Assembly: GCF_000024025.1 (NCBI RefSeq) | Contig: NC_013131.1 | Coordinates: forward strand, 4,340,001 to 4,404,000 | DNA: 64,000 bases | Source of the DNA: Catenulispora acidiphila DSM 44928 | GTDB taxonomy: Bacteria; Actinomycetota; Actinomycetes; Streptomycetales; Catenulisporaceae | Direction of reading: 5' to 3' | Shown: piece by piece, positions 24,375 through 57,318 of the stretch | How the letters are laid out: the number at the start of each line of letters is the position of its first letter | Position numbering within the stretch: position 1 is the first letter of the stretch | Notes under the pieces: generated by a model | What the model was told of the DNA's origin: nothing | The model's database searches: none | Seen by the model: the letters and a program-made list of their open reading frames with translations, nothing else | Position numbers and translations under genes: made by a program

Positions 24375-25110
24375 AGCCGAGGCGCACGACCTGATCATGA
24401 GCGTGCTCGGCGGTATGTCGAAAGGCGAGCATAATCGCGTCAAGATCCGGGTCCGCTCCGCCATGTCCGCCCAAGCCAAGATCGAGGGCAGATACCTCGG
24501 CGGTCGACCACCCTACGGCTACCGCCTGGCCGACCTGGGCCCACACCCCAAGCGGCCAGCAGTCCAACGGCAAGTCGCACTACCGGTGCCGGTACCCCAA
24601 GGAGTACGCACTGGCCAACCACGTGCAGCACCCGGACAACGTCTACGTCAAAGAAGAGGACCTGCTCCCGGTCATCGACCAGTGGCTCGTCAAGCTCTTC
24701 GCCCCGCACCGCATCGGCGACACCATCCGCGCCATGGCCGACAACGCCGCCGCCCTCGCCGAGCCCGCCCCGGCGGCCGATCCCGCTGCGGACGTCGCCG
24801 CGAAGATCGCCGATTGCGACGCCAAGCTCGACAAGTACCGCGCCGCGCTGGATGCCGGAGTGGATGCCGAAACCGTCGGCGGCTGGATCGCGGCGGTGAA
24901 AGCCGAACGCGCCCGCGCCAACCCTCAGGCGCGACTCAGCGAGGAAGTCATCAAGAACCTGATTCAGGCGCTCGGAGACATACGAGCGGTCATCGAGAAC
25001 GCCGCGCCCGAGGCCTACGCCCCGGGCACAAAAACGATTAGGGCCGAGATGAATCTCGACCCTAACAATCATGGGGTTATAGGTAGTGTCCGAGGGGGGA
25101 ATTGCCCCAT
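24375..25110 (+). pseudogene. Large serine recombinase, copy B (truncated, internally deleted)
   Basis: The catalytic N-terminus is absent. The first fragment (24375-24556) encodes AHDLIMSVLGGMSKGEHNRVKIRVRSAM...EGRYLGGRPPYGYRLADLGPHP, the recombinase DNA-binding domain. After a deletion and frame change near 24556 the second fragment continues with the zinc-ribbon end and coiled coil (SNGKSHYRCRYP..., EDLLPVIDQWLVKLFAPHRIGDTIRAM). It ends in a tail that runs into the conserved 3' box. It belongs to a different subgroup from copies C and D and cannot be active. Confidence 0.75.
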
Positions 25111-25118
25111 AACCCCAA
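25071..25118. repeat. Conserved recombinase 3' box, copy B (left part)
   Basis: TGGGGTTAT (about 25072-25080) and ATAACCCCA (about 25108-25116) form a perfect 9-bp inverted repeat around the shared core AGTGTCCGAGGGGGG. The right arm continues AAGAAAT, close to the ACGAAAT of copies A and C. The far CGGACACT arm seen in A and C was not found here. Confidence 0.55.
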
Positions 25119-25499
25119 GAAATGCTTCCCGATTCTCCTCTGAGATTAGCGTCGAGGACGCTTCGAGTCGAGTCCTTGGCGATCCAGTTGCCGTTCGCAG
25201 CTGGGCGCGCAGCCATGGACTGCAAGTTGCTGACCGCGGCCGCTTGTCCGGCGCAGTGATCAAAGCATGGCAGGTTGCCCAGAGCTGATAGGGCGTAGTG
25301 CAATCGAGACGAATCGTTACCGGGAAGTTGCGCAGACTTGGGCCTAGGTTCGGGGGCCGCCATATGGCGGCCCCCGAACCTTCGACGAGGCGTTCACGAT
25401 GTCCCGTTCCCCACGCCACCCGACCGGATCCGACGTTGGCAATGGATGTCGTTCCGCATGCCACGATCGCGCCCTGAGCCAAGACCGGCTTCTGGAATC
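25119..25499. other. Gap between recombinase remnant and membrane protein gene
   Basis: About 380 bp with no supported gene. It is probably decayed mobile DNA; the minus-strand frames here are not credible. Confidence 0.35.
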
Positions 25500-27549: not shown

Positions 27550-27551
27550 TG

Positions 27552-27840
27552 GCCTGAGGGTGCCGACAACCTCGGCGAGCTGTGATGATGCGGTGCTGTG
27601 GCGTTGAAGCTTGTGTATCTCGCGGCGAGTCGCTTGTTCGCTTGGACCAGGCTCGCGGCGCGGGATTCGACGGCCAAGGACGTCGAGATTCTGATCTTGC
27701 GGCACCAGCTCGCAGTCGCGCAGCGCCGGGATCCACGGCTGGCCCTCAAGCTCACCTGGGCCGACCGTGCGTGGCTGGCTCTTCTCGCGGGCTGGTTCCC
27801 AGGCACCGGATCGGCCGCATCCGCTGGATCGTCACGCCCG
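27552..27840 (+). pseudogene. 5' fragment of an IS transposase gene, first copy
   Basis: The stretch begins with GGCCTGAGGGTGCCGACAA, a likely element terminus, and encodes KDVEILILRHQLAVAQRRDPRLALKLTWADRAWLALLAG from about 27598. A small frame change follows, then IGRIRWIVTPE before homology ends near 27840. This is the N-terminus of an rve-type (IS3/IS481-like) transposase. A diverged relative with the same leader lies at 42558. The catalytic part is missing. Confidence 0.7.
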
Positions 27841-27896
27841 AGGCTGCTGAGATCCTTCCGTGCAGACAGCACCGTTTCGACGAGCCCCATCATCGA

Positions 27897-29939
27897 TCAA
27901 CTGGACGGAAGTCCCAATTTGTCGAAGAACGCTCGGTTCCGCTCAGTGGCCGCGTTGACAAGACGGTCGAAGCTCACCACTTCGATGTATGCCTTGTACG
28001 GCTCGTTGTAACCGAAGTAACCGAGTCCGTCGTGGGTGGGACGCAGGCTCGCATATTTACACCGCTGCACCATCGTCGGCGTGAGATCGGCGATGACGTA
28101 GCAGAAAGCGGGCGCCTCATGCGTCTCGGGGATCTGCCGCCCTGATGCGGTCTTCACGCCACCAGCGCGCACACGGTTCACATATTCCAGACATTGCTGG
28201 ATCGGGTCTTTGTCCTCCGACGCGTCGTTACGCATCGGCCGCTTGATCTCGATTACGACGATGGACGGCAGCGGGAGCGACTCGCCCTCTGAGGCCAGCA
28301 CCGGGGAGCCGACGAGCCGAGTTGCGAGCACATCGGGCTCCATCGTGGACTCGGATCCTGTAATCGGCATGCTCTTGAGCGTCTTGTCGGAGGCAAGGTA
28401 GTCGTGGAACGCAAGCCCCTCGTCGATGATCCACAGGTTCGAGGCGTCGGTGCCAATCCCGTTCGAGTCGGCCCGCATCGGGATGAGCAGCGAGTGGATG
28501 GCGTCTTCCCTGCTGTACCTGCCGTGGTCGTCGGACCTGATCAGTCTGGCGAGCACGTCGAGGATCACTCGTCGGCGCGAGACGTACGCGGCCAGGTCGG
28601 ACTGGTTGATGTCCTTCACCGTGTCCAGATACCGAGCGAGGCGTTCGGCGTAGTCATCCGACCGAGAGGAGCCGGCTTCATCGAAGACGGCCTGACCCTC
28701 GGCAATCGCGGCGGCTTCGAGCTTCTGTAGGCTGCTGTGCAGCAACAACTCAAGGTCGTGGTCCTTGATGGACGGATCCACGGACACGCCGAGCGACTCG
28801 ATCCGCGACAGAACTGGCCGGTACCTCGGCGCACGGTTGCTCACGAACTCGTTGACGCGGACCTTGCCTTCCTCGCGCGCTGCACTGAGCGGGGTGGCGA
28901 GGATACTCTCGACTTCCCTGAGCACGCCCTCGCGGATGTCCTCCAGCGACACGTCTTCGAACAGCGTCGCGCCCGGCACACGCTCGGCAATGTCGAAGCC
29001 TGTGCGGTCGGCCCGGACGTGGTTGTCGAGAGAGCCGGAAGATAGGTAGCAGACGTAAGTGAATGGGGAGGATGCTTCGTCCTTGAGTCGGCCGTAAAGC
29101 CCTGGCACCTTGCTCGTGAGGTTCTCCTCCATCACCACGCGGCTCGCGGCGCACCAGTACAGCCGTGGCGTGAGACTGCGTGTCGAGGACTTGAGGCGAA
29201 GGTTAATCATATCGAACTTCTCACCTTTGACGTCGATAGAAGTTATCGACATCGTAGAGAACACAAATTCGTCCATCAGATCCTTGAGCGAGACCGTCTC
29301 GTCGTCGTCGGTCACCGTAATGTCAGGCGCGCCGCCTGGGCGGAGGAAGTACCAGATACAGTGCTCGAACGTCTCGCGAGCGATGGCGTCGACGGACTTC
29401 ACCGCGTTCTGCTGGAACGGCTTCTTGAACCCTTCGAGGTTCACGATCGTGCCGACATTGCTTAGGCCGTCCGCTTCCCCGTCCAGCTCCACCTCCCCCT
29501 CTACGGAGAACCGGAACTGCCGTCCGTGGAGGCCACCGGCTTCGTCCTCATAGGCGCTGCAGACCGAGACCCTGTCGAAGGCCTTGAGCCAAAGCAGGCG
29601 TCCCACACCACGGCAGCCGATGGCGGCCTTGTGGTCGCTGTCCAACGTCTCGAATGACGTCATGTTCGCCGAGGTGAAGCCCACCCCGTTGTCCTCGACG
29701 CTGAAGGCGACTATTGGCTTCAGCGCCACACGCCCAGGGCCAGCGGGACCAAAGTCGAGTTCCTCCTGCTGGCTGCGCTGGATCCTGACGCTCAGACGAC
29801 CACGCTCGACGTCGTCGCCGAATCGGGCGTCGATCGCCTGAATGCCGTTAACGACAGCCTCAAGGAGCGGCAAGAGCGCATGGCTCTTCGGCAGGCTCGT
29901 GTTCCGGACTCGGCCAGCCAGCGACGTGGTCAGCGCCAT
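27897..29939 (-). CDS. GHKL (HSP90/MutL-type) ATPase fused to a PD-(D/E)XK nuclease
   Basis: 680 residues. The N-terminal ATPase has the Bergerat motifs: N box EAVVNGIQAIDAR (~27-39), G1 VEDNGVGF (~80-87), and G2 GCRGVGRLLWLKAF (~107-120). The C-terminal ~150 residues carry PD at about 533, then IVVIEIKRP (~560-568) and QCLEY (~583-587). These are the proline-aspartate, E-x-K and Q-x-x-x-Y elements of a RecB/Cas4-like nuclease. ATP-dependent conformational change probably controls DNA cleavage. GAGGAG precedes the ATG at 29939. The gene stands alone beside IS and recombinase DNA, as expected of a defence gene. The exact system is not recognised. Confidence 0.8.
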   Translation of the reverse strand: MALTTSLAGRVRNTSLPKSHALLPLLEAVVNGIQAIDARFGDDVERGRLSVRIQRSQQEELDFGPAGPGRVALKPIVAFSVEDNGVGFTSANMTSFETLDSDHKAAIGCRGVGRLLWLKAFDRVSVCSAYEDEAGGLHGRQFRFSVEGEVELDGEADGLSNVGTIVNLEGFKKPFQQNAVKSVDAIARETFEHCIWYFLRPGGAPDITVTDDDETVSLKDLMDEFVFSTMSITSIDVKGEKFDMINLRLKSSTRSLTPRLYWCAASRVVMEENLTSKVPGLYGRLKDEASSPFTYVCYLSSGSLDNHVRADRTGFDIAERVPGATLFEDVSLEDIREGVLREVESILATPLSAAREEGKVRVNEFVSNRAPRYRPVLSRIESLGVSVDPSIKDHDLELLLHSSLQKLEAAAIAEGQAVFDEAGSSRSDDYAERLARYLDTVKDINQSDLAAYVSRRRVILDVLARLIRSDDHGRYSREDAIHSLLIPMRADSNGIGTDASNLWIIDEGLAFHDYLASDKTLKSMPITGSESTMEPDVLATRLVGSPVLASEGESLPLPSIVVIEIKRPMRNDASEDKDPIQQCLEYVNRVRAGGVKTASGRQIPETHEAPAFCYVIADLTPTMVQRCKYASLRPTHDGLGYFGYNEPYKAYIEVVSFDRLVNAATERNRAFFDKLGLPSS

Positions 29940-30235
29940 GGTTTTCTCCTCGCTCCGACGCCGCCCACCCTATCGGTGGGCCCGGTGGGGAGCATGCTCG
30001 GCGACGGAGATCCTCACGGCGTGGCCTCCCGGTCGACCTCGCCATCGCCCCAGTCCGTCACCGACCCCTCAATCGCCGACATTCTCGACAGCGTGGCATT
30101 GATGGTCAGTAGGCGGAACGCTACGTCGTCGCTGGCACGCGCTTTCGGACGCCAGTATTGCCAACGTCCACGACCCCTGAGACACCAAGTACAGAGCCGA
30201 CTTGGCATCTGACCAGTGCAAACAGGCGGTGCTCC
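29940..30235. other. Divergent gap between the GHKL-nuclease gene and recombinase copy C
   Basis: It should contain promoters for both directions, but I could not identify -35/-10 elements. No gene is supported. Confidence 0.35.
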
Positions 30236-30610
30236 ATGGCGAGAAAGCAGGCTGTGCGACCGGCGCTGTTCCCGGTTTCGGCGCTGCAGTCGGCGCCAGC
30301 ACACCGAACGGTCTCCGCTCCCACCGTGGTGCTGGCATGTCCGGTAGACCTGGAGGACCTGGCATCCTGGGCCGCTGCGCATCAGGCTCGTCCGGCACGC
30401 CTGGTCACCGGCGGGCTTCGGTTCGCGTTCTACTGGCGGTGCTCGACGGAGGACAACTAGGATCCTGCGACCTCGCGTTCCTGGCAGCTGGGACAGGCAC
30501 TGTCGACGATCAACGGCGAGGGCCGGATCGTCGTCGAGTTCTCCGATGTGGGTAAGAGCCGGTTGATATCACCGTTCCAGCGTTCCGGCTCGGCGGCGCT
30601 GTTGGCAGCC

Positions 30611-31486
30611 TTAGAGCGACCGCCACTTGATGGTATAGGGGAGTCGGCGGCTGGTTGGTCGGGTGTCCCAGCGGTAGCGGTTGCGGGCTTGGCGGATGAG
30701 TGCACGGACGGTGACGAACGCGGCGGCGAGGTAGAGGTAGAAGTCGATGATCTCGCCGTCGCGTTCGAAACAGCGGCGGATCTTGCCGTAGCCGTTCATC
30801 CAGCTCTGGCTGCGTTCCACGACCCAGCGTTTGCCGACCTGGATCGGAGCCGGCACCCCCTTGGCGGCTATCTCGCCGATCAGGTGGTGCTCGTCCAGGA
30901 CTTTGCGGCACGGTTTGCCGTTGTAGGCGGAGTCCAGGTGGATCGTGGCTCTGTCCGGTAGGTGTCCGACCTGCTGTTTCGCTGCCTCGATGGTGGGTTC
31001 CAGCAGCTTTGAGTCGTGTCGGTTGGCGCCGGCCGAGGCCAGGCCGAGCGGAACGCCGTCGCCGTCGACCAAGGTGGAGCGTTTCAAGCCCTGCTTGGCG
31101 CGGTCGACCGGTGAGGGTCCGGCCTTGTCGCCTTTGCATGGGGCTTTGGTGTGGCAGCCGTCGGCGGACAGGTCGTGGAGGTCCAGGCCGATCATCGTGT
31201 CGTAGGCGGCCAGCACAATCCGGTGGAGTTCCTGTGCCAGGCCTATGTGGGCCCATTGCTTGACGCGGCGGCGGATGGTGGTCGCGGAGCACCCTTGCGA
31301 GGCGATCCGCTCGTACCCCGAACCGTGGACCAGGGCGTCCACGACGTGCCGGAACACGACCAGGTCCGGTATCCGGCGGCGGTGGCATCCCCACGGATGG
31401 GCCGGGTCGAACTCGGGCCGCTCGGGCAGCAGAGCTGCGAACTGGTCCCACAACGCATCGAACAGAGATGATGGGACTGCAGGCAC
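30611..31486 (-). CDS. IS5-family DDE transposase
   Basis: 291 residues. The catalytic triad is visible: first Asp in HDLSADGCHTKAP (~107), second Asp in ATIHLDSAYNGKPC (~193), and Glu in RWVVERSQSWMNGYGKIRRCFER (~228) with the YREK-like spacing of the family. The last sense codon (Leu, 30614-30616) is the end of the IS; the TAA stop is the complement of the TTA target duplication. The protein catalyses excision and insertion of its own element. No frameshift is present. Confidence 0.92.
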   Translation of the reverse strand: MPAVPSSLFDALWDQFAALLPERPEFDPAHPWGCHRRRIPDLVVFRHVVDALVHGSGYERIASQGCSATTIRRRVKQWAHIGLAQELHRIVLAAYDTMIGLDLHDLSADGCHTKAPCKGDKAGPSPVDRAKQGLKRSTLVDGDGVPLGLASAGANRHDSKLLEPTIEAAKQQVGHLPDRATIHLDSAYNGKPCRKVLDEHHLIGEIAAKGVPAPIQVGKRWVVERSQSWMNGYGKIRRCFERDGEIIDFYLYLAAAFVTVRALIRQARNRYRWDTRPTSRRLPYTIKWRSL

Positions 31487-31609
31487 GGATCCTCCGGCGG
31501 TTACGAAGCGTAGAGAACTCCGAGATCACCGGGATCCGTGCCTGTCTGTCAATCCCCTCAATCACTTGCCGTCCACAGCCAGCTGCACCCCATCAAGTGG
31601 CGGTCGATC
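30614..31609 (-). mobile_element. IS5-family insertion sequence, 996 bp
   Basis: Inverted repeats GAGCGACCGCCACTTGATGG (30614-30633) and GATCGACCGCCACTTGATGG (right end, 31590-31609) match at 19 of 20 positions. The 3-bp target TTA is duplicated at 30611-30613 and 31610-31612. A TNA target and one DDE transposase gene are typical of the IS5 family subgroup using 3-bp TNA sites. The element lies inside recombinase copy C and appears intact, so it may be the youngest event in this region. Confidence 0.92.
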
Positions 31610-32767
31610 TTAGCCGATCCGGACCGCGGCTTTGACGCGGTGGTGATCGGCTCGCACGAGCGGGCGTTCTCCGGCAACCAGTACTCCCTGGTCGCACCAC
31701 TGTTGGCGCTGCATGGGGTGCAGCTGTGGATGCCGGAACTCGGCGGCCGGGTCGACCCCGCGCTCGACACGATCGAGGACCTCATGGCGCTGCTCGGGAT
31801 CCTGTCCCGGCGCGAGGTTCAGCGGGCCAGGCGCCGTGTCATCAACGCGATGACCGTCCAGGTCAGCGAGCAGGGTCGGTACGAGGGCGGCCGGGTGCCG
31901 TACGGCCTGAGGCTGGTCGAGGCTGGACCGCACCCCAACCGGCGTCTGGCCCGGCGCGGTATCTGTCTGCAGAAGTTCGACACCGATCCGGACACGGCAC
32001 CGATCGTCGCGGGGATCTTCGCCAGGCGGTTAGAGGGATTCAGTCTGGCCCGGATCGCCCGGGACCTGAACAACCAGCACATCCCGTGCCCGTCGGCCGA
32101 GGACCCCGAAGCCAACCCGCACCGCACCGGCGCCGGATGGACTTTGGGCACGGTTCGGGAGATCCTGCTGAACCCCGTCTACACCGGACGCATGATCTGG
32201 GGCCGCAGCCGCACCGACCGCGACCTGGCTGATGCCGGCAACACCGCGCTCGGCCACCGCGAGGTCCGGCGGCGCAACGGCCCCGAGCAGTGGGTGATCT
32301 CCCAGCGGCGGACTCATTCCGCGATCGTCAGCGACACCGACTTCATCGCCGTCCAGAACCTGCACGCCGAACACGCCCAAGCGACGCACGACTACCGGCT
32401 CAAAGGGCTGCTACGGTGCGCGATCTGCGAACGCGCCTTCGAAGGACACTGGGTCAACGACACCCCCGGCTACCGCTGCCGGCACGGACACCGCAGCGTC
32501 AAGGACGCAGCGACGCCCCGGCCGAAGAACGTCTACCTGCGTGAGGACCGCGTCCTGGCCAAACTGCCGCTGCTCCACCACAGACTCACCGCCGCCGAAC
32601 CGGCCGCGGCCATCACCGGCGCCACTGCCAGCGCCGCCCGCGCCGTATCGCCCAGCCCTGAGGAGGTGATCGACTACCTGCGCGCGCACGCGATCGTGCT
32701 CCGCTTTGACCGCAGAACTCGGACGCTGGAGACCAGCAGCGAACACCCGGTGCGCATCACCATCTGA

Positions 32768-32959: not shown

Positions 32960-33099
32960 AGTGTCCGAGGGGGGTTTTATTCCATAACCCCACGAAATCC
33001 CTGGGCATTCAGTGATTATTTGCACCTGGCGGGTTCCGCCGCGTAACACTGCTAGTGGAGGAGCTCTTTGGCCAGAGTGTCGGTCACATTCCGGACACT
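32960..33099. repeat. Conserved recombinase 3' box, copy C
   Basis: AGTGTCCG (32960-32967) and CGGACACT (33092-33099) bound a 140-bp segment, almost the same length as copy A (142 bp). CCATAACCCCACGAAATCCC lies at 32982-33001. The first ~55 bp and last ~15 bp match copy A, and the centre differs. Confidence 0.6.
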
Positions 33100-37170: not shown

Positions 37171-40100
37171 ATGGATATGGGCGCGGGTCTGGGTGACAGC
37201 CATTCGGCGGTGCTGCAGATCGACGGCGGGCTGGTGCGTTTCAAGGCCGGCGCGGGGTCCGTCGCGCAAGAGCACAGTGGCCTGACGTACCGCGCGCGTG
37301 AAGCGCTTCGGGAGCTGCGGGAGCTCCGCCAAGGCACCGATGCGGTGTGGTGGGAGCTCGGGCTCGGGCTCGGGGAATCCTTTCTGGACGGGCCGGTCGG
37401 GGTTGCGCTGGCGGCCGAGCTCGGGCGCGCTGCGCAGACCGAAGTACCGTTGCGGCTCGCGCTTGACATCGCCGAGCCAGCATTGGTGAACGTGCCGTGG
37501 GAAGCAATGGTGCTCCCGGAGAGGTGTGATCGGTCGCGGCGACAGATCCCGCTGGCGCATGACAGTGCGGTGCAGGTTTTCCGGCTCGTGGAACAGGAGT
37601 CTGCGACGGGGACGGCGGTCAGAGCGACACCCGGAGTGGTAGGCAGGACCGCAGGCGGCGTTGCCGGCGGGCCGGCAAGGCTGCCGCGGGATGCCGGATC
37701 AAACGGAGCGCCGCTGGAGGTGTTGGTGGCAATCGCGTTCCCGGAGCGCAGCGGGCTGGACCGGCTGGACTACGAACGGGAGCTTGTGCTGGTCCAGCGG
37801 GCGATGCGGCCGGCGATTGAGACTGGCATGGTGTCGCTGCGGCTACTCACATGGGGGACTGCGGACTCGATCGGCGCCGCGCTGCGTGAGCGGCCTGCAG
37901 ACATCCTGCACATCTCGTGCCACGCCGCGCCGGGCGTCCTCGCTCTGGAGACGGTCGACGGTGAAGAGGACTTCGTGGACGCCGGGACGCTGGTCTCGCG
38001 AGTGTTCCCGCAGGACCGACCAGTCCCGATGGTTGTGCTGGCGGGCTGTTCCAGCGCGCTGGGCACGGTGGACGACGTACAGGGGCCACTACCTGGCCTG
38101 GCTCACGCGCTCGTGGCTCGAGGAGTCGACGCGGTGGTGGCGATGACCGCGGACATCTCGGACGACTGTGCCGTCGAGTTCACTGCGGGACTATATGCGA
38201 CGCTGGCGCAGGATCCAACGTTGGCGCCGCTAGACGTCGTGACCCAGACCCGGGCTGCATTGGCACCTTTGCCACCGCGCGAGCCGGGGATGACGGAGCC
38301 GCAACAAGAACCGGCCCGAGAACGGGGGCGAGAGCAGGCTGACAGAAACGGCCGAGAGGCGAGGACGACGCTGATTCCAGCCTTGTTCCTCAACTCGGCG
38401 GGGGTCGGGCTGAGGAATGTGCAGGCTGGGAGTGCTTCCGTGCCCGGGGCGGCGTCAGAGCCGGGGCTAGGATCTGGGGTTGGGTTCGGCGCAGGACTGC
38501 GGGCCAGCTCGCGCTCGGAAGTCTTGGGTGGGTGGAATGAGGGCTCTGGCTTTGTCGGGCGGCGCACGGAGCTGCGCGGTCTTCTGCGTATCTTGCGGTC
38601 GGATCTGCCGCGTGTGATCTTGTTCGGGATGACCGGGATCGGCAAGAGCGCGCTGGCCGCTGAGCTCATTACGCTCCTCGACCCGGGGGCGTGGGTGGTC
38701 GTGCCCCTGGATGCAGGGGCGGCTGCGGACAGTGTGGTCAGCACTCTGCTTGGGGTGTTAAACAGGGTTGGCGCGTTGGGCAATCCGATGCTCGAGTCCT
38801 GGCTTTCCGATCCGGATACGCCATGGATCAGGCGTCTGGATCTCGTAAGTGAGAACGTGCTGCCGCACACCCGCGTGCTGCTGATGGTTGATGGGGTCTC
38901 CTGTTCAGGCGATCCGGCGACGGGAGCGTACGCAGCAGAGCCTGCGGAGCTGGGTTGGTTTCTGGACGCTTGGTCGCGACTCGGGCCGAACGCGGGGCTA
39001 CTCGTCACGTGTCGTCATCCGATTTCATTCGAGACGCGTGGTAGGAAGCTGGTGCAGCATTGTCTACTCGGGCCGTTGTCGGCGTCCGACACGCAGACTT
39101 TTCTCTATCAGCATGCGCCGCAGCGGAGTGCTCTGTTCGCGAAGCTGCCCGATGCTGGGTTACTCGGCGGCCATCCTGCAGCGCTTGGGCTCGTCGCGAA
39201 TGCCGTGCGCAACGCCCAGGACCCGACCGCGCTGAGCCCAGAGGTGATCCATCATGCGCTGAACGAGACAGCGCCGGCTCTCGACGAGGTCTTCGAGCTG
39301 TTCGCGGGCCTCGATGCCGGGCATCCAGTGCGCCAGCTGCTTGTTGGCGCGTCGGTATACCGGGGGCCGGTACGGCGTGAGGCCTTGGAGCAGCAGCTTG
39401 CCTTGACGGATCAAGCTGCTACGAATCCGGAGCGCACGACGCGGCTGACCGTAGCCTTGGAGAATGTTCTGCGCGAGGCCCAGACCGAGGACGTATCCGA
39501 GCTGTGGTGGGAGGATGGAGAGCCGTTACAATTCTCTGAAACGCTGCTCGCGGACCTCGAGGATGCACAGCGACCAGTCGTAGATCCGTCATTCCCTGAG
39601 GTGCTACGTAGCGCGCTGGGCACCGGACTCATCTTCGGGTCTTATGACAACCGGTCCGGAGTGGAGAATCAGAACGGAGCGGACGACGGAAACGAGGCGA
39701 ACCGCGAGCCGTTCAAGGTTCATCCATGGGTGGCCGCGCAGATTAGTGCGCTGGCCGACCAGGCTGAGGTGGACGCCGCTCGCCGCCGGGCTGCGTCCTA
39801 CTGGCGCCGCCGACTGAACATGGACCTGGCGCGCGGGCACCTGCCGTCGCTAAGCGAAGACGCTGAGCGTCTGTTGGAGCAGTTCGACGCTCTAGGCGAC
39901 ATGGCCGCAGCCAAGGAGCCGCTGCTGAGATCGGTGAGCCTGGCGTACCTGCGCGGGACCGGGGGCTACGAGCAGTTGCGAGAGCGTTGCGAGCTGGGCC
40001 TCGCGCACCTGCCGCTCGAACCGAAAGAGACCGTGGTGTTGCTGCTCCTGCACAGTGTCGCCTGCTACGCGATGGGTGACGAGGCCACAGGGGCGTGCAG

Positions 40101-42381
40101 CAGCGAACGAGCTGTCGAGGCAGCACGGAGCCTGCCCATGAACTCGCCCACTCGAGTGCAGACCGTCATCATGCATACACGCAACCTACTGAGACTGCCG
40201 CAACGGGCCGGCGAAGTCGCGACACTCATCGATGAGGCTGCGGAGGGCGCACGGGCCTGCGGATACGACCTCCTGGATGGAGCCGTTGACCATCTGCGGG
40301 CGATGCTGGCAGTCAGGCGCCAACAATTCGACGAATGCGACCAGTTCGCTCGCGCGGCCTTGCACACGGTCGCCGGGGTCGCACCTATCTGGTACACCCG
40401 GGCGGTGCAGTGGGAGGACGTCGTGGACCTCTCCGAGGCGTTGAGGTTGGGCGAGTTGGCCGGGGCGGCAAGTGATCAGGCCATCCTGGCGGAAGGCCTC
40501 GGGATCGCCGCCGACACAGCCGAACTGGGCTGCCTCGGCCTGTGCGCCGCCATAGCGCTGGAGCGCGGCCGGCTCGATGAAGCGGCCGCGTTCATGGACA
40601 GGGCACGGCAAGTGGCCGACCGCACTCCTCTACCCGGCCAGCTTCCGCCGATTTACGCCCTAGACTCGACCATCGCCCTGCTCCAAGGCGATATCTCTCG
40701 GGCCGGAGAGCTGTGCCGAGCCGGTGTGACCTCGGCTCGGGCGTTCGATGACCGAGTGAGCGAGACCCGGTGCCTTAACCTGCTGGGCCAGATCGCCATG
40801 CACGGCGGCCAGGCGAACACCGCGCTGCGCGAATTCGGCGCGGCGTACGCCTGCGGAATCGGCACCGTGGCGGACGACCAGGCCAGGGTCTCAGCAGTGT
40901 TCTGCGCCTTCGTCTACACGACGATGGAGGATCCGCGTGCGCGGGACTGGCTGGACAAGGTCGGCGACACGCTGCCCACTGATCCGGGGGCAAACTCCCT
41001 CGCACAGTACATGATCGGCCAAACCGCCCTGGTCGAGGGCGACTTTGCAACAGCCACGCGGCACGCGCAGGACATGCTCCGCGTCATCGAAGAGGGCGAC
41101 TATCCTCAGATCTCTTGCATGGGGAAGCTGCTACTAGCGCAATGCGCCGCCGGGCGCGACGACTGGGACGCCGCTGGAGAACTGTTCAGCGAGGCGATCG
41201 ACGCCTCCGAGGTATGCGACCAGCCTTTGCTAAGGTTCGACGTGCTGCTCAGCGGAATCGAGATGGTCCTCACGATCGACGAGCCGGTGAGTGTTGGCGA
41301 CCTCGACGCGCTCGATGAGATGGCGCAGGAGGCAGAGGCGATTGCGCAGGGGGCGGATGCGCCAGGACTGATCGCCCGGGTCTTGCAGGCCCGGCAACTG
41401 ATCAGGGGCCGCAGACGCGGCCCGCTAGGGTCCGGCTTTGCCGGTCCGCTGCTCAGGGCGAGCCGTGATGTCGGGGACGCGGAGGCCGTCGAGAACGCAA
41501 TCGTGGCGCAGTTCCACGAGGCGCTCAACGCTGAGCGGTTTGAGGAGGCCTCGGAGCACCTGGCGTGGCTCAAGTCGGTCGTCGAGGCCGGCAACGAGGG
41601 CAAAAGGCTCTTGCTCGGGTTGATGGAGGCCTCGCTTGACCTCGAACAAGGGCGTCTCACCGAAGCCGAGGAGCGTATGCTGCAGGTCTACGCCGCAGCC
41701 GACGCGGGCGGACCGGACATAGCCGAACTCGCCGCGATGGCTGCGGGCCTGCTGGCCGCGATGGCCGCAGAGACCTCGGATCTCCACAAGGCAGAATGCT
41801 GGCAGGCGACTGCGTTAAGGCATCTAATCACGGGCACCGCAGAGTGGTACCAGGAACTCGACGGGTTGAAAGATATGGCCGAGGAACGCGCGGCAGCCGA
41901 CCCCGCCGCCTGGTGGCAGAACCTGGAAGCGATCGCCGACGACGCTGTGGCCCGTCACCCCGCGCTTCCCGACCTCGCCGCGGCGGTCCACCAGATCTTG
42001 GCCAAGATCGCGGATGACCACGGGCCCGCAGCACAGCGGGAACGCTGGCTGCGGCAGGCGTTAAGTCTGTGGCCGACGGACGTGCCGGAGCACTCCGATT
42101 ACGGGCCCCGGGCGACCAGGCACGCTTTGGCCCGGCTGCTCGCGCGCGACGAGGAGACCCTCGACGAGGCGACCTCGCTATTGATCTACAACCTGTGCCG
42201 TTCCGAGGAGGACGGAAGCGGCTACCACGACCCATTCGACGAACTTCTTCTCGGCGTGCTGCGGCAGTACTGGGGCGAACCGGTATTTGCTGCGAAGCTT
42301 GCCACGCAGGCAGACGCCGAGCAGCAGGCTCGGATTCTCGCCGCCACGAGTGACTGGGGAAGTGCTTCCGACCAGATGTAA
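37171..42381 (+). CDS. CHAT protease-STAND NTPase-TPR protein
   Basis: 1736 residues. The CHAT caspase-like domain spans about 60-420: LVNVPWEAMVLPER, catalytic His251 in ILHISCHAAPG and Cys293 in VVLAGCSSALG. The NTPase begins FVGRRTELRGLLRIL with P-loop GMTGIGKS (486-493), Walker B LLMVDGVS (~570) and LLVTCRHP. A winged-helix-like linker is followed by roughly 850 residues of TPR-like helix pairs (880-1730). STAND NTPases with TPR tails act as sensors that oligomerise and switch on the attached effector, here a protease. The intact dyad says it can cleave. The gene has five TTA codons (about 38758, 39157, 39526, 41814, 42061), rare in such DNA. It is the last gene of the operon. Confidence 0.85.
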   Translation: MDMGAGLGDSHSAVLQIDGGLVRFKAGAGSVAQEHSGLTYRAREALRELRELRQGTDAVWWELGLGLGESFLDGPVGVALAAELGRAAQTEVPLRLALDIAEPALVNVPWEAMVLPERCDRSRRQIPLAHDSAVQVFRLVEQESATGTAVRATPGVVGRTAGGVAGGPARLPRDAGSNGAPLEVLVAIAFPERSGLDRLDYERELVLVQRAMRPAIETGMVSLRLLTWGTADSIGAALRERPADILHISCHAAPGVLALETVDGEEDFVDAGTLVSRVFPQDRPVPMVVLAGCSSALGTVDDVQGPLPGLAHALVARGVDAVVAMTADISDDCAVEFTAGLYATLAQDPTLAPLDVVTQTRAALAPLPPREPGMTEPQQEPARERGREQADRNGREARTTLIPALFLNSAGVGLRNVQAGSASVPGAASEPGLGSGVGFGAGLRASSRSEVLGGWNEGSGFVGRRTELRGLLRILRSDLPRVILFGMTGIGKSALAAELITLLDPGAWVVVPLDAGAAADSVVSTLLGVLNRVGALGNPMLESWLSDPDTPWIRRLDLVSENVLPHTRVLLMVDGVSCSGDPATGAYAAEPAELGWFLDAWSRLGPNAGLLVTCRHPISFETRGRKLVQHCLLGPLSASDTQTFLYQHAPQRSALFAKLPDAGLLGGHPAALGLVANAVRNAQDPTALSPEVIHHALNETAPALDEVFELFAGLDAGHPVRQLLVGASVYRGPVRREALEQQLALTDQAATNPERTTRLTVALENVLREAQTEDVSELWWEDGEPLQFSETLLADLEDAQRPVVDPSFPEVLRSALGTGLIFGSYDNRSGVENQNGADDGNEANREPFKVHPWVAAQISALADQAEVDAARRRAASYWRRRLNMDLARGHLPSLSEDAERLLEQFDALGDMAAAKEPLLRSVSLAYLRGTGGYEQLRERCELGLAHLPLEPKETVVLLLLHSVACYAMGDEATGACSSERAVEAARSLPMNSPTRVQTVIMHTRNLLRLPQRAGEVATLIDEAAEGARACGYDLLDGAVDHLRAMLAVRRQQFDECDQFARAALHTVAGVAPIWYTRAVQWEDVVDLSEALRLGELAGAASDQAILAEGLGIAADTAELGCLGLCAAIALERGRLDEAAAFMDRARQVADRTPLPGQLPPIYALDSTIALLQGDISRAGELCRAGVTSARAFDDRVSETRCLNLLGQIAMHGGQANTALREFGAAYACGIGTVADDQARVSAVFCAFVYTTMEDPRARDWLDKVGDTLPTDPGANSLAQYMIGQTALVEGDFATATRHAQDMLRVIEEGDYPQISCMGKLLLAQCAAGRDDWDAAGELFSEAIDASEVCDQPLLRFDVLLSGIEMVLTIDEPVSVGDLDALDEMAQEAEAIAQGADAPGLIARVLQARQLIRGRRRGPLGSGFAGPLLRASRDVGDAEAVENAIVAQFHEALNAERFEEASEHLAWLKSVVEAGNEGKRLLLGLMEASLDLEQGRLTEAEERMLQVYAAADAGGPDIAELAAMAAGLLAAMAAETSDLHKAECWQATALRHLITGTAEWYQELDGLKDMAEERAAADPAAWWQNLEAIADDAVARHPALPDLAAAVHQILAKIADDHGPAAQRERWLRQALSLWPTDVPEHSDYGPRATRHALARLLARDEETLDEATSLLIYNLCRSEEDGSGYHDPFDELLLGVLRQYWGEPVFAAKLATQADAEQQARILAATSDWGSASDQM

Positions 42382-42557: not shown

Positions 42558-42850
42558 TGGCCTGAGGGTGCCGACAATCCCTGCGAGCTGGGATGATGCC
42601 ATACCGTGGGGTTTAAGCTGATCTATCTGGTCGTGACCCGGATGTTCTCGTGGCTGTGGTTGGCCGAGCGAGATTCGGCGGCGAAGGACGTCGAGATCCT
42701 GATGCTGCGGCATCAGCTTGCCGTCGCACAGCGTCGTGATCCGCGTATGGCACGAAAGCTGACCTGGGCCGATCGGGCGTGGCTGGTGTTGCTGGCCGGG
42801 CTGCTCCCCCGTGGCCTGTGGGTTCGACAACTCCGCCAGCGGCTTGAGCT
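42558..42850 (+). pseudogene. 5' fragment of an IS transposase gene, second copy
   Basis: It opens with GGCCTGAGGGTGCCGACAA, as at 27552, and encodes FKLIYLVVTRMFSWLWLAERDSAAKDVEILMLRHQLAVAQRRDPRMARKLTWADRAWLVLLAGLLPRG. After about 42835 the homology ends and the frame closes. About 280 bp are related to the 27552 copy but clearly diverged. It is the N-terminus of an rve-type transposase with no catalytic part. Confidence 0.7.
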
Positions 42851-50636: not shown

Positions 50637-51656
50637 TCATTCTTCCCGCTCAAGCAGTTCCCGCAATCGAGCCACTTGCACCTCCCACTGCTGGGTCAGC
50701 CGTATCCCATTCATCGTCCTTGTCCAATAGCCGTTCCGACGGCTCTCCAAGTACGACCCGGGTAGCCAGAGATGCATCAGCTGGTCAAATACCGTCTGCA
50801 CGACTTCCCTGCGTCCCGCCGGATCCAAGTGCTTCCTGGCCATCCGATCCGACACGAGCGCGACCGTCGAGATGAGCCACTTGTGCCGGGCCACGTCCTC
50901 GCAAAAGCGGACGATCGAATCGAGCGGCTCGTCGGAAGGCGCGGTGAAATGCAGTACAGGGCCGCGGGTCTCCGATAAATTGGCGTGGATCTTGCTGAGC
51001 TCGGAATCGCGGAGCACGGCTGTCCAGTAGAGGCGGTCGCCTGCACTACGGAAGGCGATGACGTGATCGAGGCGGCGTGAGCTCTGGACATCGTCCACCA
51101 GGCGGTCCGCGATGAGGGTAAGACCGAGGTCCGGGGGTTTCGACAGGGGAGCATCGATCAGGACGCGCAGAGTTGAATCGTCGACGACCGCCGTTCCCGG
51201 GGCAGCCAGTTTTTCACCCCAGGGACGGCGGCCTGCCGTCGACATCGGCACCACGGCCACCCAAGCCGAGCCTTGGACAATCCGCCCGCCGTAGACGACA
51301 GCCCGACCGACTGCGGTACCTAAGATCGCCCGGTTCGGGATACCGAGCACCCCCGAGTCGATGCCAGCTACTCGATGCGCCGACCAAGCCAATGGGACCG
51401 GACGTACTGTCTGCTGCACATTACCGATCCGCGTGACAACACGCTGTGGCACTATCCGGAGGATCTCCGCACTTCTCGCCAATGGCAGCGCGCCACTGTG
51501 CTGGATCAATGCCGTGCTGACCACCCCGAAAAGATGGGAGGGTGCGCGCGCCTGCCCCGAGTCGGACGCCGGCAACAGGAGACCCGCCACGTCCGGCGGT
51601 TTCTGCCACTGCCCCTCGAACTCCTGCCCTGTCTCCGCTGGCTCTTGCCTCGTCAC
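50637..51656 (-). CDS. SCO2521-like protein, last gene of the VMAP operon
   Basis: 339 residues, no membrane helix. Segments such as LLPASDSGQARAPSHLFGVVSTALIQHSGALPLARSAEILRIV, VVDDSTLRVLIDAPLSKPPDL and HKWLISTVALVSDRMARKHLD appear. The C-terminus (LMHLWLPGSYLESRRNGYWTRTMNGIRLTQQWEVQVARLRELLEREE) is helical. I think it belongs to the SCO2521 family because the next gene resembles SCO2523 and the two families are neighbours in Streptomyces; function is unknown. Start overlaps the upstream stop by 4 nt, so it is coupled to the ParA-like gene. Confidence 0.6.
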   Translation of the reverse strand: MTRQEPAETGQEFEGQWQKPPDVAGLLLPASDSGQARAPSHLFGVVSTALIQHSGALPLARSAEILRIVPQRVVTRIGNVQQTVRPVPLAWSAHRVAGIDSGVLGIPNRAILGTAVGRAVVYGGRIVQGSAWVAVVPMSTAGRRPWGEKLAAPGTAVVDDSTLRVLIDAPLSKPPDLGLTLIADRLVDDVQSSRRLDHVIAFRSAGDRLYWTAVLRDSELSKIHANLSETRGPVLHFTAPSDEPLDSIVRFCEDVARHKWLISTVALVSDRMARKHLDPAGRREVVQTVFDQLMHLWLPGSYLESRRNGYWTRTMNGIRLTQQWEVQVARLRELLEREE

Positions 51657-52576
51657 AGAGTCTCCCAGGCTTGGTGGTCACTCAGCCGCCGAGCCAAGCT
51701 CGCGTATGCCTCCACCGTGTCCTGACGGGCGATCTGAACGCTCGCGACGTCGAAGCCCGTAATGATCTGCTCCCGCAGCTTCAGTACCGGATCGAAGGGC
51801 ACCGTCCCCAACACGGCGCCGATCCCCAGTTGCTGCTCAGCGGCGAAGTTCCGCAGCTCGGCGTCCATCTCCGCCTGCCACGCCTGCTGAGCCACTTGCC
51901 CGAAACGGCCTAGGCTCGCCTTGTCGGCCACGATGCAACGGACGAACCGGAGGGCGCGCTCCACTGCCGCGGGGTCTAGCCCGGTATGGCGTGCGGTGTC
52001 CAACAGCCCTGAGGGGCCATGCACGAAGTCGCCCGCAGCATCCACGTGCAGCCGCGTCCACTGGTGGACCACCAGCCAACGCGCGACGATGTTCCGCATC
52101 TCCGGACGAGCCATGACCTCCAGAACCAGGTCGACCGCCACGGTGCGGCCACTGCCCAGATCGACGACGGTCACCGAGTACTCCGACTCCGTGCGCAGGA
52201 AGAGCTCCGAGCACCTTTGAACAATCTCTGCGGTTCGCCCGAACCACCTCGCACCGCGATCACCCGGCAGCAGCACCAGCCGCCCGGCCCCGGGAGGCCG
52301 ATTACGCAGAGCAGCTCCCGCCGTCCGGGTCGCGACATCCAACACCACGGGCCGAGGGCCGCCCCCAAGCAGGAACGAGCGGACCCCGTCCCGGGTCACG
52401 CCTCGTGCCGCGGCGTCGATGTCGAACGTCGCCCCGGCGGACGGCCGGCCGAAATCGAAGTCCAGGTACGCAACATCCTCACCCTTGAGAGCCAACTGAT
52501 AGGCCATGTTGCAGCCGGTCACCGTCTGTCCGGCGCCGCCCTTACCCGCCGCCGTGAACACCAGCATCGCTGTCAC
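51653..52576 (-). CDS. ParA/MinD-like protein with variant P-loop (SCO2523 family)
   Basis: 307 residues. The N-terminus MLVFTAAGKGGAGQTVTGCNMAYQLAL follows the deviant Walker A of ParA ATPases (KGGxGKT), but the essential Lys is Gln22; the signature Lys is kept. The downstream YLDFDFGRPSAGATFDID and SVTVVDLGSGRTVAVDLVLE correspond to switch regions. NCBI-style naming calls this an SCO2523 family variant P-loop protein. ATP hydrolysis is likely lost or altered; a scaffold or nucleotide-binding role is more probable. It overlaps both neighbours by 4 nt, so stoichiometric production with the conflict proteins is expected. Confidence 0.7.
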   Translation of the reverse strand: MTAMLVFTAAGKGGAGQTVTGCNMAYQLALKGEDVAYLDFDFGRPSAGATFDIDAAARGVTRDGVRSFLLGGGPRPVVLDVATRTAGAALRNRPPGAGRLVLLPGDRGARWFGRTAEIVQRCSELFLRTESEYSVTVVDLGSGRTVAVDLVLEVMARPEMRNIVARWLVVHQWTRLHVDAAGDFVHGPSGLLDTARHTGLDPAAVERALRFVRCIVADKASLGRFGQVAQQAWQAEMDAELRNFAAEQQLGIGAVLGTVPFDPVLKLREQIITGFDVASVQIARQDTVEAYASLARRLSDHQAWETL

Positions 52577-55500
52577 ACTCCTGTATGGGTGTACGCGGCC
52601 CAGCTCAGCGGGTCGTCCGGGAAGTCGTGCCGCATCTCATCGACGGCCCCGTGCAGAGTTCGGGCCCACTCGCCGATCTTCGGACCGGTACTCGGCGAGT
52701 CGGACCGACTCGCCGTCATGTTTGTGAGTGCAAACGCATGTGAACCGAGCTTCGGCCACAGCGTACCGATCGCCTGCCGGAACCCGGCCAGATGAAGAGC
52801 ACCGGTAACCGGGACGGTCTCCTCGACACGCACACGCGGCGTCGGGGGCGAGTCTATGCCGACGAGCAACGCCAGCCCCGCGCTCACACGCTCGTCGGCG
52901 ATCTCGCTGATGGTCAGCGCTTTGACTCCGTGTCCAAGTGTCACGACCTGGCTGAGCATGGGATTGAGAAGGTCCGAGTGAGAGCCGTGAGGAAACACAG
53001 CGACCGCGCAATGTCCGAGGTCGCGGACATCAACGGGGGCGTGTGGCTTGCTGGGTTCAGGAAAGACACGCATGCCTGAGAGAAGCCCTGCAGGAGGACG
53101 CTCGACAGCTTCCAAGAGGCCGCGGATCGTCGGCGCGTAGGAGGACACCACGCGGTCCATTACTCCAGAGACGCCGGGCGTCCGCCGAAACTCAGAAGCC
53201 GCGTGGATCGGCAGGCGGGCCAAGGGACCGAACGTGCTCCACCAGATCAGCGGACTCTGCGTGTCTGGCGCCGTAGGTTGCAGTCCCAGCGAAGCGAGCA
53301 CGGGCTCGGCGAGGGTGTCCCACAGCCAGTACAAGATGTCCGACACGGCGAACGCCACGTGCCGCCGGACGTCGGATCGTTCACCGGCCGAGAACGCCCG
53401 TGCGTACGCATCAGCCAGCGACGCGGCCTCCGCACACACCCTCTCCTCGCTGAGCCCGGGCAACGGCACGACCGTTACCGAGCTCGACCCGCCCCCGATG
53501 ATCAGCGCGTCACAGCGCGTTGGCGCAGTGTTCACCAACACAATGGGGCCCAAGCCCGCCTTGTTGACGCGCCTTACAAGGTCTCCGAAATCAGTAGCCT
53601 GCTGTGGCGGATTCGGCAGCACCGAGCCCCGAAGCATCTCCAGCAACTCCACGGCACGCTCCGGACGTCCCGCGTCGAGGGCCGACGCCACAGCCTCGCC
53701 GACCAGCCGCGCGACCGGCAAAGCACCGCGGGGTGGCGGAGACGGCAGCCGGAGCAAGTCGATCGCGTCCTCGATGAGTGACAACGCGTGTGCGGGAGGG
53801 CCCACCAGGGGGGCCAGCCGCCGGCAGGCGTTGCTCCGCACTACACGCGGCACGTTGTCATCGGAAATGACAGCGTGCAAATAGAAAGAGGCGCTGTCCC
53901 GGTCCGGGGGTGACGCTTCGGCGAGCGCTGATCCGAGGTCATACATTCGTTCCGCCGCGGTGGGGTCGTCGAACGGGATGTCCTTGAGCGCACGGCGGGC
54001 TGCCGAGACGGCGTCGTCGGGCTCGTCACCGGAGAGCAGGCTTTCTGTGAGGTTCAGGGTCCAGAGAATCTCCCGGCGCATCGAAGGTTCGGGCGGGTTG
54101 GCCAGCACGGCGTGCCGGAACGCGGCGGCGGCGTCCATCATCGCGCCGAGGTCGCCGGACCGGCGGGCGAGCCTGAGCAGGGCGTCGCCGAGGGCGAAGT
54201 GCCAGGTCCAAGGCTGCCGGTCGGTGGAGGCTCCACTCGGGACGCAGTCCATGTACGCCTCGATGCCGTCGACCAGGTCGACGATGTCGCCGGTCTGATC
54301 GGCCAGCAGCACAAGGGCCGCGCCCAGCGCCGACATCAGCTCGCCGTACCGCCGGCCGCCGGGCGGCTCCGCGGTCGCGGCGGCGCGAGCCGCCGCGACC
54401 ATCGCCAACGCGTCGTCGACGCTGGGCCGGGGCCCGTCTGGCAGCCACTGCCCGACCCCGTACCTGACCTCCTCGGGCCGCTCTCCCAGCCGCCTCATAC
54501 CGGCGGCCGACAGGCTCGCGAACGGCAGTCCTTCAGCGAGCGCCGGGCCTGTCCCCGAGACACCGGTGAGGGCGGTCCGGTCGCCGCCGAGCCGGTCGCG
54601 GCGGCGTTCCAGGTAGGCGGAGACCTCGTCGTGGACGAGGTCTCGGACCTGGCGGGTGTCGCGGCGGTACTGGCCGGTGAGTATGGCCTCGCGCACGCCG
54701 GGGACAAAGTCGAACACGGCCTGGTCCGCGGATTCTGCTTCCTCGGACGACGCGGGAGCCTCGCGGTGCAGCAGGTTGCCGAGGAACACCTCGGCGAGGT
54801 CCCCGCGGGAGGAGCCAGGAACCATGGCCCGCTGGACGAGGCGGGCGATGGGGAGGGTGACCGGTTCGACGGCCGAGAGCAGGCCGGCCAGGCGCCAGGC
54901 CGAGCCGGAGGAGGAGAAGCGGAAACGGCGGATTAGCTCTTGGGGATCCGGATCCGTGGCGACGGGATCGGGTTCTCGGTCCAGCTCCACCGTTGCGATG
55001 GCCCGGCGCTGCTCACCGGCGGGTCGGGGGCGGTCTGCTTCAATCACCAGGGCCGCCGTCCGCGCCCACCGGCCGTTCCCCGCGGTCAGCCCAGCCCAGG
55101 GCCGCAGATCTTCGGCCTCGAGCGTCAGGACGGGGATCACGGTACGGCCGGGACGCGCCGAACGCCGCCGCGACGGTCCGGTGAACGTCTGCCACCGTGC
55201 ATTCGGGGCGCCGGGCCTCGGGGCCTGGATCATCGCGGGAAGCGGTGTGGCGCCGCCCCTGGACCAAAGACCCGAGGGCAGCAAATGCAGGATCGCGACC
55301 GGGGAGGTGCGGGCCCATTCGGCCAGCAGACGTTGGGCGGCCCCGGTGTGCCACATCGGTCCGACGGTGTCCGTCAGGACCAAGATGAGCTGGCGGCCGG
55401 TGGGGTCGACGATGTCGCGGGACCGGAGCGCAAGGCCCTGGGCTGCTGTAGCGGTGTGTCGGCGCACCTCCACCGTGGTTCCATCGCTGTCGGGGCGTTC

Positions 55501-56172
55501 GGTAAATCTCCAGCGGCGAACGTCCCGGAACGCCCCGAGGCGGACCATCACCTGATGCAGCTCGTGGATCTCCGACCGCCATAGGGCCATCGACGGGCTG
55601 TCGGCCTGGACGAACGCCAGGCGCAGCCAGCGGGAAGGCCGGGGCCGCAGCGCCGGGAGCAGCATGCGCTCGTCCAGACGTCGGGCCACAGTGGCGTCCT
55701 CGTCGAGCTCGAATTCGGTGTCGGAGGGGACGTGGCGGTTTAGGGCGCGCAGCGCCCGCATCAGGTCGAGCGTATTGGTCAGCCCCGGCTCGCCGGGGCC
55801 GCGGACGAGCGCCGCAGCCTGCGTCCCGGGGCTGCCGATACGGGCCGGACTGTGTAGGCCGCCGCGGACAGTGTGGCCGGGGCCGGAGCTTGAGACGTCG
55901 CCGGTCGGCTGCGGCGCGCGCGGCTCTAGACCTGCGTTCCCATCGCGCGAACGGCCCGCGTCGGCGTCAGGTTGTGTCTCAGGTTCCTGCTTGTCACCGT
56001 CAGGGCTCTGTGCCGGATCCGAACCAGGCGCCGGCACGGTCGCTGTTCCCGCGTTAGTGTGGTCGTCGCTCACCGTGATGACAGAAGCCAGCCAGAGGAT
56101 GTCGGCCAGTTCCTCCGGCCGCGGATCCGGGGCGCCGCCTTCCCGGATCAGCTCCGCCAATTTCGGGATCAC
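52573..56172 (-). CDS. SAV_2336/vWA-like protein with C-terminal degenerate CHAT domain
   Basis: 1199 residues from GTG 56172 (GTGA overlap with the MoxR stop; the longer frame is unlikely). The N-terminus IPKLAELIREGGAPDPRPEELADILWLA is the SAV_2336 motif. An acidic, low-complexity linker follows (~30-105). A vWA-like region has RQLILVLTDTVGPMWHT, then a long helical middle. The C-terminal ~350 residues have the CHAT layout (SPLIWWSTFGPLARLPIHAA, RVVSSYAPTIRGLLEA, GALHLAGFRQAIGTLWPKLGSHAF). Where CHAT has the Cys in LSACxTA, this protein has ALLVGIDSPP (~1100) and the His motif is distorted, so it seems proteolytically inactive. It should serve as adaptor or sensor between MoxR and the caspase protein. 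Confidence 0.75.
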   Translation of the reverse strand: MIPKLAELIREGGAPDPRPEELADILWLASVITVSDDHTNAGTATVPAPGSDPAQSPDGDKQEPETQPDADAGRSRDGNAGLEPRAPQPTGDVSSSGPGHTVRGGLHSPARIGSPGTQAAALVRGPGEPGLTNTLDLMRALRALNRHVPSDTEFELDEDATVARRLDERMLLPALRPRPSRWLRLAFVQADSPSMALWRSEIHELHQVMVRLGAFRDVRRWRFTERPDSDGTTVEVRRHTATAAQGLALRSRDIVDPTGRQLILVLTDTVGPMWHTGAAQRLLAEWARTSPVAILHLLPSGLWSRGGATPLPAMIQAPRPGAPNARWQTFTGPSRRRSARPGRTVIPVLTLEAEDLRPWAGLTAGNGRWARTAALVIEADRPRPAGEQRRAIATVELDREPDPVATDPDPQELIRRFRFSSSGSAWRLAGLLSAVEPVTLPIARLVQRAMVPGSSRGDLAEVFLGNLLHREAPASSEEAESADQAVFDFVPGVREAILTGQYRRDTRQVRDLVHDEVSAYLERRRDRLGGDRTALTGVSGTGPALAEGLPFASLSAAGMRRLGERPEEVRYGVGQWLPDGPRPSVDDALAMVAAARAAATAEPPGGRRYGELMSALGAALVLLADQTGDIVDLVDGIEAYMDCVPSGASTDRQPWTWHFALGDALLRLARRSGDLGAMMDAAAAFRHAVLANPPEPSMRREILWTLNLTESLLSGDEPDDAVSAARRALKDIPFDDPTAAERMYDLGSALAEASPPDRDSASFYLHAVISDDNVPRVVRSNACRRLAPLVGPPAHALSLIEDAIDLLRLPSPPPRGALPVARLVGEAVASALDAGRPERAVELLEMLRGSVLPNPPQQATDFGDLVRRVNKAGLGPIVLVNTAPTRCDALIIGGGSSSVTVVPLPGLSEERVCAEAASLADAYARAFSAGERSDVRRHVAFAVSDILYWLWDTLAEPVLASLGLQPTAPDTQSPLIWWSTFGPLARLPIHAASEFRRTPGVSGVMDRVVSSYAPTIRGLLEAVERPPAGLLSGMRVFPEPSKPHAPVDVRDLGHCAVAVFPHGSHSDLLNPMLSQVVTLGHGVKALTISEIADERVSAGLALLVGIDSPPTPRVRVEETVPVTGALHLAGFRQAIGTLWPKLGSHAFALTNMTASRSDSPSTGPKIGEWARTLHGAVDEMRHDFPDDPLSWAAYTHTGV

Positions 56173-57287: not shown

Positions 57288-57318
57288 CGACTGACTCCGC
57301 TTCTGTTCGTCCCGGCGC

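Follow-up and report, generated by a model that had tools for sequence, protein, structure and literature searches.

A probable single-protein anti-phage nuclease of the GHKL-Shedu kind on a mobile one-gene cassette in Catenulispora acidiphila

The question raised by this locus is what a single protein does that appears to join an ATP-binding clamp to a nuclease, and that is encoded among the remains of mobile elements. The window, by which we mean the whole analysed stretch of 64,000 nucleotides from Catenulispora acidiphila DSM 44928 (NC_013131.1, positions 4,340,001 to 4,404,000), contains on its minus strand at 27897–29939 the open reading frame that the first-pass annotation had placed there; it is intact, with 680 codons plus stop, and is preceded by a ribosome-binding site rated as good (GGAGCGAGGAGAAAACC-ATG). 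We consider it probable that the encoded protein, P0001, is of the paraMORC3 or GHKL-Shedu kind and works alone as an anti-phage nuclease, its gene being part of a mobile cassette. Judged from its sequence, P0001 is predicted to be a GHKL (Bergerat) ATPase in its N-terminal part and a nuclease with an E-D-ExK-QxxxY signature in its C-terminal part. The gene, the predicted domains and the limits of the cassette are as follows:

27897–29939, minus strand: gene for P0001, a predicted 680-aa GHKL ATPase/Shedu-like nuclease
28857–29939, minus strand: predicted GHKL ATPase with S5-type transducer, residues 1–361 (AlphaFold2 model, VIA-align)
28509–28856, minus strand: long helical linker, residues 362–477 (AlphaFold2 secondary structure)
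27900–28508, minus strand: predicted PD-(D/E)XK (Shedu-like) nuclease domain, residues 478–680 (conservation, profile comparison)
28416–28418, minus strand: codon 508 (GGG, Gly), Arg or Lys in 69/69 aligned relatives
29940–30046, minus strand: conserved upstream segment of up to 107 bp with GGAGCGAGGAG ribosome-binding site (similarity in closest Streptomyces relatives)
27883–27896, minus strand: end of the conserved cassette, about 14 bp beyond the stop codon

Conservation was scored on a 70-row alignment, whose other rows are 24–89% identical to P0001. The three Bergerat motifs that had been claimed for the ATPase half are all present (E27-A-V-V-N31, D83-N-G-V-G87 and G108-C-R-G-V-G-R114), and the key residues E27, N31, D83, G85, G87, G108, G111 and G113 are kept in at least 90% of the 70 rows. 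In P0001 itself, Pfam found a sub-threshold HATPase_c match alone (12.8 bits), members of its family gave HATPase_c/HATPase_c_3 matches, and a sequence search of the PDB with P0001 returned weak MutL and histidine-kinase matches only. An AlphaFold2 model built from the 70 diverse sequences reached a pLDDT of 83 and a pTM of 0.68; an earlier model with 31 mostly close relatives was dropped (pLDDT 67.5, with values below 50 over much of its nuclease region). The fold search that the first-pass annotation had proposed for such a model matched residues 1–361 to GHKL-S5 ATPases, with VIA-align Z scores of 15.8–19.6 to Hsp90, MORC3, MORC4, TopoVI-B and MutL and an rmsd of mostly 3.5–5 Å, and the structural alignment across these residues covers the N plus middle domains of Hsp90 as well as MutL, TopoVI-B and MORC. 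What is newly seen here is that residues 1–361 model as a GHKL-S5 ATPase, in which the GHKL domain is predicted to be followed by an S5-type domain. Behind this part, the model places linker helices at residues 371–382, 393–423 and 430–466.

The C-terminal half carries the PD...EIK...QxxxY signature that had been noticed, in the form P535-D536, E564-I-K566 and Q582-xxx-Y586; the earlier residue numbers E563/K565 were one too low and are corrected to E564/K566. Invariant in 70/70 rows are E478, H482, W503, D506, S517, D536, E564, K566, Q582 and Y586. When a Shedu profile built from seven canonical Shedu proteins was compared by hhalign with the C-terminal part of the P0001 family, a score of 47.6 was obtained (P 1.6e-6, probability 90%), and E478/D536/E564-x-K566/Q582 were paired with the E/D/ExK/Q of Shedu SduA with the order kept. 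The full-length profile gave a P of 1.2e-5 against the SduA profile. Five control profiles (HsdR N-terminus, HsdM, HsdS, portal and TerL) scored at most 22.5, and 60 column shuffles no more than 19.2; reversal of the profile gave 9.3. Profile comparison is also the basis on which we assign a PD-(D/E)XK fold to this domain: for residues 478–680, the order of secondary structure elements and the profile match fit such a fold, while the structure matches covered residues 1–361 only, and whole-model fold searches were not informative on the nuclease, as their matches were filled by the GHKL part. On profile comparison, the nuclease domain appears to be homologous to SduA_C in a broad sense. Pfam SduA_C gave no match on P0001 and 17 relatives at E values up to 0.1, and because P0001 stays below the strict Pfam cut-off for this family, it is not filed as a canonical Shedu protein; NCBIfam and PADLOC models gave no match to P0001 either. 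The nuclease had been likened to Cas4, but it resembles Shedu (SduA) instead, and none of the columns that are invariant or almost so in the 70-row alignment holds a cysteine for a Cas4-type Fe-S cluster. The original reading as a GHKL clamp joined to a PD-(D/E)XK nuclease is otherwise upheld by conservation and profile comparison.

P0001 is real beyond chance, as is evident from the homologue counts across databases together with a dN/dS of 0.15–0.26 of its gene against four relatives, which indicates purifying selection. Relatives, mostly full-length, were found in 62 plasmid records, 30 of which are predicted to be conjugative, and in one sequenced phage, and homologues occur at 48 genome-contig loci, mostly of Actinomycetota, and at 46 IMG/VR loci in one scan. 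Among evenly drawn Actinomycetota, 2/396 genomes carry a homologue, the window's own genome included, and a further sample of this phylum had a full-length homologue in 2/296 genomes. In a 68-row tree, P0001 lies among Streptomyces copies, beside those of Streptomyces torulosus (L010) and of a Streptomyces prophage (L003), and the genome of the window (G000) and that of another relative (G023) belong to one order and to different families. Patchy distribution and cross-family nesting fit horizontal transfer. As a yardstick for such transfer, the comparison with ychF is modestly informative only: against one Streptomyces strain, dS is 0.50 for ychF and 0.63 for the nuclease gene, and with four other relatives, of which three are Streptomyces, the nuclease gene has dS values of 0.22–0.80. 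With Vibrionaceae relatives, P0001 shares 46–49% identity.

The limits of the transferred unit were taken from L010, L005/L016, L017, L012, L013 and others. DNA similarity to the nearest Streptomyces relatives starts at −41 to −107 and stops no more than about 14 bp after the stop codon, and the flanks in these relatives are a type I R-M locus, prophages and chromosomal sites, all unrelated to those in the window. Since the similarity is confined to the gene and its upstream DNA, the mobile unit consists of the gene plus its upstream segment, and the claim of a stand-alone gene is borne out by this single-gene cassette amid unrelated flanks. The ychF gene lies upstream of the homologue in L034, L036, L038, L040, L042 and L044, which come from several actinobacterial genera, and the distance is a few hundred bp or less in four loci; this suggests an insertion hotspot beside ychF. 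In the last of these loci (L044:9720-11410, Brachybacterium), an insertion with a DDE_Tnp_1_4 transposase splits the homologue at the ExK motif.

In the window, P0001 sits in a 7.9-kb block of lower GC content (0.60–0.63 at 25–30 kb versus about 0.67 around) between att-like repeats:

24397–25041, plus strand: second serine-recombinase-like fragment, truncated and frameshifted (found by eye; no Pfam match)
25085–25123, plus strand: att-like direct repeat, copy 1 (AGTGTCCGAGGGGGG...CCATAACCCCA)
27550–27800, plus strand: transposase/integrase fragment of about 250 bp, with a 76% identical copy at window 42558–42809
30416–30609, plus strand: 5' part of a serine recombinase gene, cut off by an IS (sequence reading)
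30610–31613, minus strand: IS element (DDE_Tnp_1/DUF4096, IS4/5 type) inside the serine recombinase gene
31614–32767, plus strand: remainder of the serine recombinase gene (PF07508 Recombinase, zinc ribbon)
32960–32998, plus strand: att-like direct repeat, copy 2, 85% identical to copy 1 and 7875 bp away

Both 39-bp repeats lie shortly downstream of serine-recombinase genes, the 15-bp core of the repeat has three exact copies in the 10.5-Mb genome, and we interpret the direct repeats as putative att-like sites. The third exact core of the AGTGTCCGAGGGGGG repeat is located at G000:C1:4624592 (4.62 Mb), in a region that resembles window 24.4–25.1 kb. The first-pass annotation had described a transposase fragment and a serine recombinase as flanks, and both are present, but neither is intact: the former is the piece of about 250 bp, and the latter contains an in-frame TAG at 30458–30460 in its 5' part in addition to the IS, which has 24-bp terminal inverted repeats and, at 99%, two further copies in the genome. 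The element has probably lost a mobility that it once had. Elsewhere in the window are genes of conflict type: a 1736-aa CHAT-NACHT-TPR protein is encoded at 37171–42381, and ParA-like, CHAT, MoxR-type AAA and caspase-VMAP-C genes stand in a row at 51653–59400 as a conflict-type cluster. The same genome has a separate canonical Shedu gene at G000:C1:3479757-3480206.

The neighbourhoods of the relatives agree with the defence-island setting that had been claimed, as homologues occur in restriction loci, plasmids, islands and prophages, and the genome-context survey that had been suggested did not place most of them at core, non-mobile sites. Restriction helicases, HsdR, methylases, integrases, resolvases and transposases came up when 123 neighbour proteins were scanned, and other neighbours are a canonical Shedu gene, XamI, SIR2/SAVED genes, an Abi gene and LlaJI. 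One neighbourhood is conserved in six records, which are Streptomyces and IMG/VR contigs (L003, L004, L005, L011, L016 and L017), where the homologue lies between the prophage genes for the terminase large subunit and the portal protein. The order terminase large subunit, homologue, divergent 283-aa gene and portal was read directly in L003 and L016, and PHROGs confirmed terminase, portal, scaffold and major head protein in L003. The divergent 283-aa gene, which follows the homologue in L003, L011 and L016, has neither a Pfam nor a PHROG match; in L005/L016, hsdM- and hsdS-like genes are found downstream of the portal gene. A general partner gene was sought near the homologues and not found, and candidates are confined to subgroups. 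A 400-aa gene with no Pfam match (P0002, P0003) lies downstream of the homologue in L034, L036, L038, L044 and L055, with its frame split in L034 and its first part alone matched in L044, and is a possible partner in this small subgroup; DUF3800 genes are present near a few proteobacterial copies. In the window, neither the 400-aa gene nor a DUF3800 gene was found.

The domain make-up, the conservation of both active sites, the mobility of the cassette and its setting among defence and mobile genes were obtained here by computation, and the role of P0001 is most likely the ATP-gated cleavage of invading phage DNA. Two copies of P0001 would dimerise, and on ATP binding their N-terminal GHKL-S5 clamp would shut around DNA in the manner of MutL, Hsp90 and TopoVI-B. 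The clamp signal would be relayed through the long helices to license the nuclease, and the C-terminal PD-(D/E)XK domain would then cleave the invading DNA, presumably that of a phage, with metal ions held by E478, D536, E564 and K566 during cleavage. Candidate triggers are DNA ends, a replication intermediate or a phage protein, and some type I Shedu proteins sense free DNA ends (PMC12409362).

We infer that the window copy is active, but this is uncertain because Gly508 replaces the Arg or Lys of all 69 relatives (Arg in 64/69 and Lys in 5/69). This position, within the NLWIIDER block ahead of the first nuclease strand, is the only one at which P0001 deviates among the columns conserved at 80% or more, and the glycine may mean a weakened enzyme or a sequencing error. 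It is therefore conceivable, if rather doubtful, that the copy is inactive or decaying in a block of damaged mobile genes, for which the R508G exchange and the broken recombinase genes around P0001 speak. Against decay stand the complete frame, the retention of both catalytic sites and of the ribosome-binding site, and the low dN/dS given above.

Other functions have to be weighed against phage restriction. P0001 could act mainly against plasmids and other mobile DNA, or in competition between elements, with plasmid and prophage copies shielding their carrier from rivals. The many conjugative plasmids and prophages among the carriers make this a serious though lesser possibility, but phage-defence genes, too, are usually carried on mobile elements, and the characterised relative VcSduA from the Vibrio cholerae WASA lineage, a GHKL-Shedu nuclease, restricts phages (Adams et al., 2025; PMC12137116). 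The same relative bears on the idea that P0001 is an abortive-infection effector which, once activated, degrades the DNA of its host with lethal outcome. A non-specific nuclease under GHKL gating could act in this way, but cultures with VcSduA were protected at every MOI tested and the host survives, which fits direct restriction (PMC12137116), and we judge the idea unlikely. In Vibrio fluvialis and Salinivibrio, the homologue stands at the end of an hsdR-AAA-hsdM-hsdS operon, and HsdM-like genes are close to 11 homologue loci, so that P0001 could be an accessory ATPase-nuclease that is functional only with type I restriction-modification systems. A constant hsdR/M/S linkage was, however, not found: hsd genes are near some homologues only, most copies, the one in the window included, have none adjoining, several prophage and chromosomal copies have none nearby, and close relatives have only the single gene and up to about 100 bp upstream in common. 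An obligate type I accessory is, in our assessment, quite improbable. On the Vibrio fluvialis plasmid (L006:6625-10019), the GHKL-nuclease gene shares 4 bp with a canonical Shedu gene (SduA_C, 90.8 bits), and the pair closes the type I R-M operon with two adjoining Shedu-like nucleases. A housekeeping role in MutL-like DNA repair has the resemblance of the GHKL-S5 fold to MutL in its favour, but with the sporadic distribution (2/396 genomes), the mobile contexts and a gene tree that crosses host families, we give it hardly any credence.

On plasmids, islands and prophages, the GHKL-Shedu design forms a broad actinobacterial branch that escapes the models of PADLOC-DB (2023) and current NCBIfam, and a profile from this branch could extend catalogues of the PADLOC/NCBIfam type. 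More speculatively, and with considerable reserve, the branch may be a separate GHKL-gated Shedu subtype outside the reach of Pfam, NCBIfam and PADLOC models, a one-gene cassette that spreads through Actinomycetota and that some phages keep as a weapon against rivals or as a packaging-linked nuclease; if so, some Streptomyces phages would retain the gene between terminase and portal for one of these two uses. We found one experimentally tested GHKL-Shedu protein in the literature, from Vibrio, and know of no experiment on the P0001 clade, and Streptomyces would be a tractable host for studying the ATP gating of a Shedu-like nuclease.

Among known systems, canonical Shedu SduA (PF14082; PDB 8ti8, 8ps4) shares with P0001 the E-D-ExK-Q nuclease in the same order, as judged by profile, but has no GHKL domain, and its N-terminal region is unlike that of P0001. 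A second GHKL-SduA_C fusion (L164:40-2043), adjoining a Dcm-type methylase gene and with an SduA_C match slightly under the Pfam cut-off, has the two-domain idea in common with P0001, but belongs to another GHKL subgroup, and BLAST gave no usable similarity to P0001 (E 0.16). A phage-borne version is represented by phrog_6203, which carries no functional annotation and matches P0001 residues 81–674 (E 8.5e-4). The paraMORC3 proteins were described as a combination of GHKL and S5 domains with a C-terminal domain that has an E-D-ExK motif and the restriction-endonuclease fold; they are sporadic in distant bacteria, and a subset are encoded by stand-alone genes (Iyer, Abhiman and Aravind, 2008; PMC2292703). 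Compared by this published description, P0001 shares with paraMORC3 a GHKL domain with intact ATP motifs, an S5 domain and the C-terminal E-D-ExK motif; the 2008 text emphasises proteobacteria and Bacteroidetes, whereas P0001 represents an actinobacterial/Streptomyces branch on a mobile cassette. VcSduA has been tied to paraMORC3 and to Shedu type I-D, and its E27A and K557A variants each lose defence, so that both active sites are needed (PMC12137116). P0001 resembles it in the combination of GHKL and predicted C-terminal PD-(D/E)xK domains in one protein, in Glu27 of motif I, in the lysine of ExK and in the location on a mobile island, and differs in a nuclease that Pfam SduA_C (DUF4263) fails to recognise. 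In a Vibrio lentus relative of P0001, E27 and K557 carry the very residue numbers reported for VcSduA; we rejected this match as proof of orthology, since the two residues are spaced almost equally in the distant L164 fusion (E36/K564). Orthology of P0001 and VcSduA is likely, though unproven, and the design of P0001 is one already known, from paraMORC3 in 2008 and, with phage defence demonstrated, from VcSduA in 2025.
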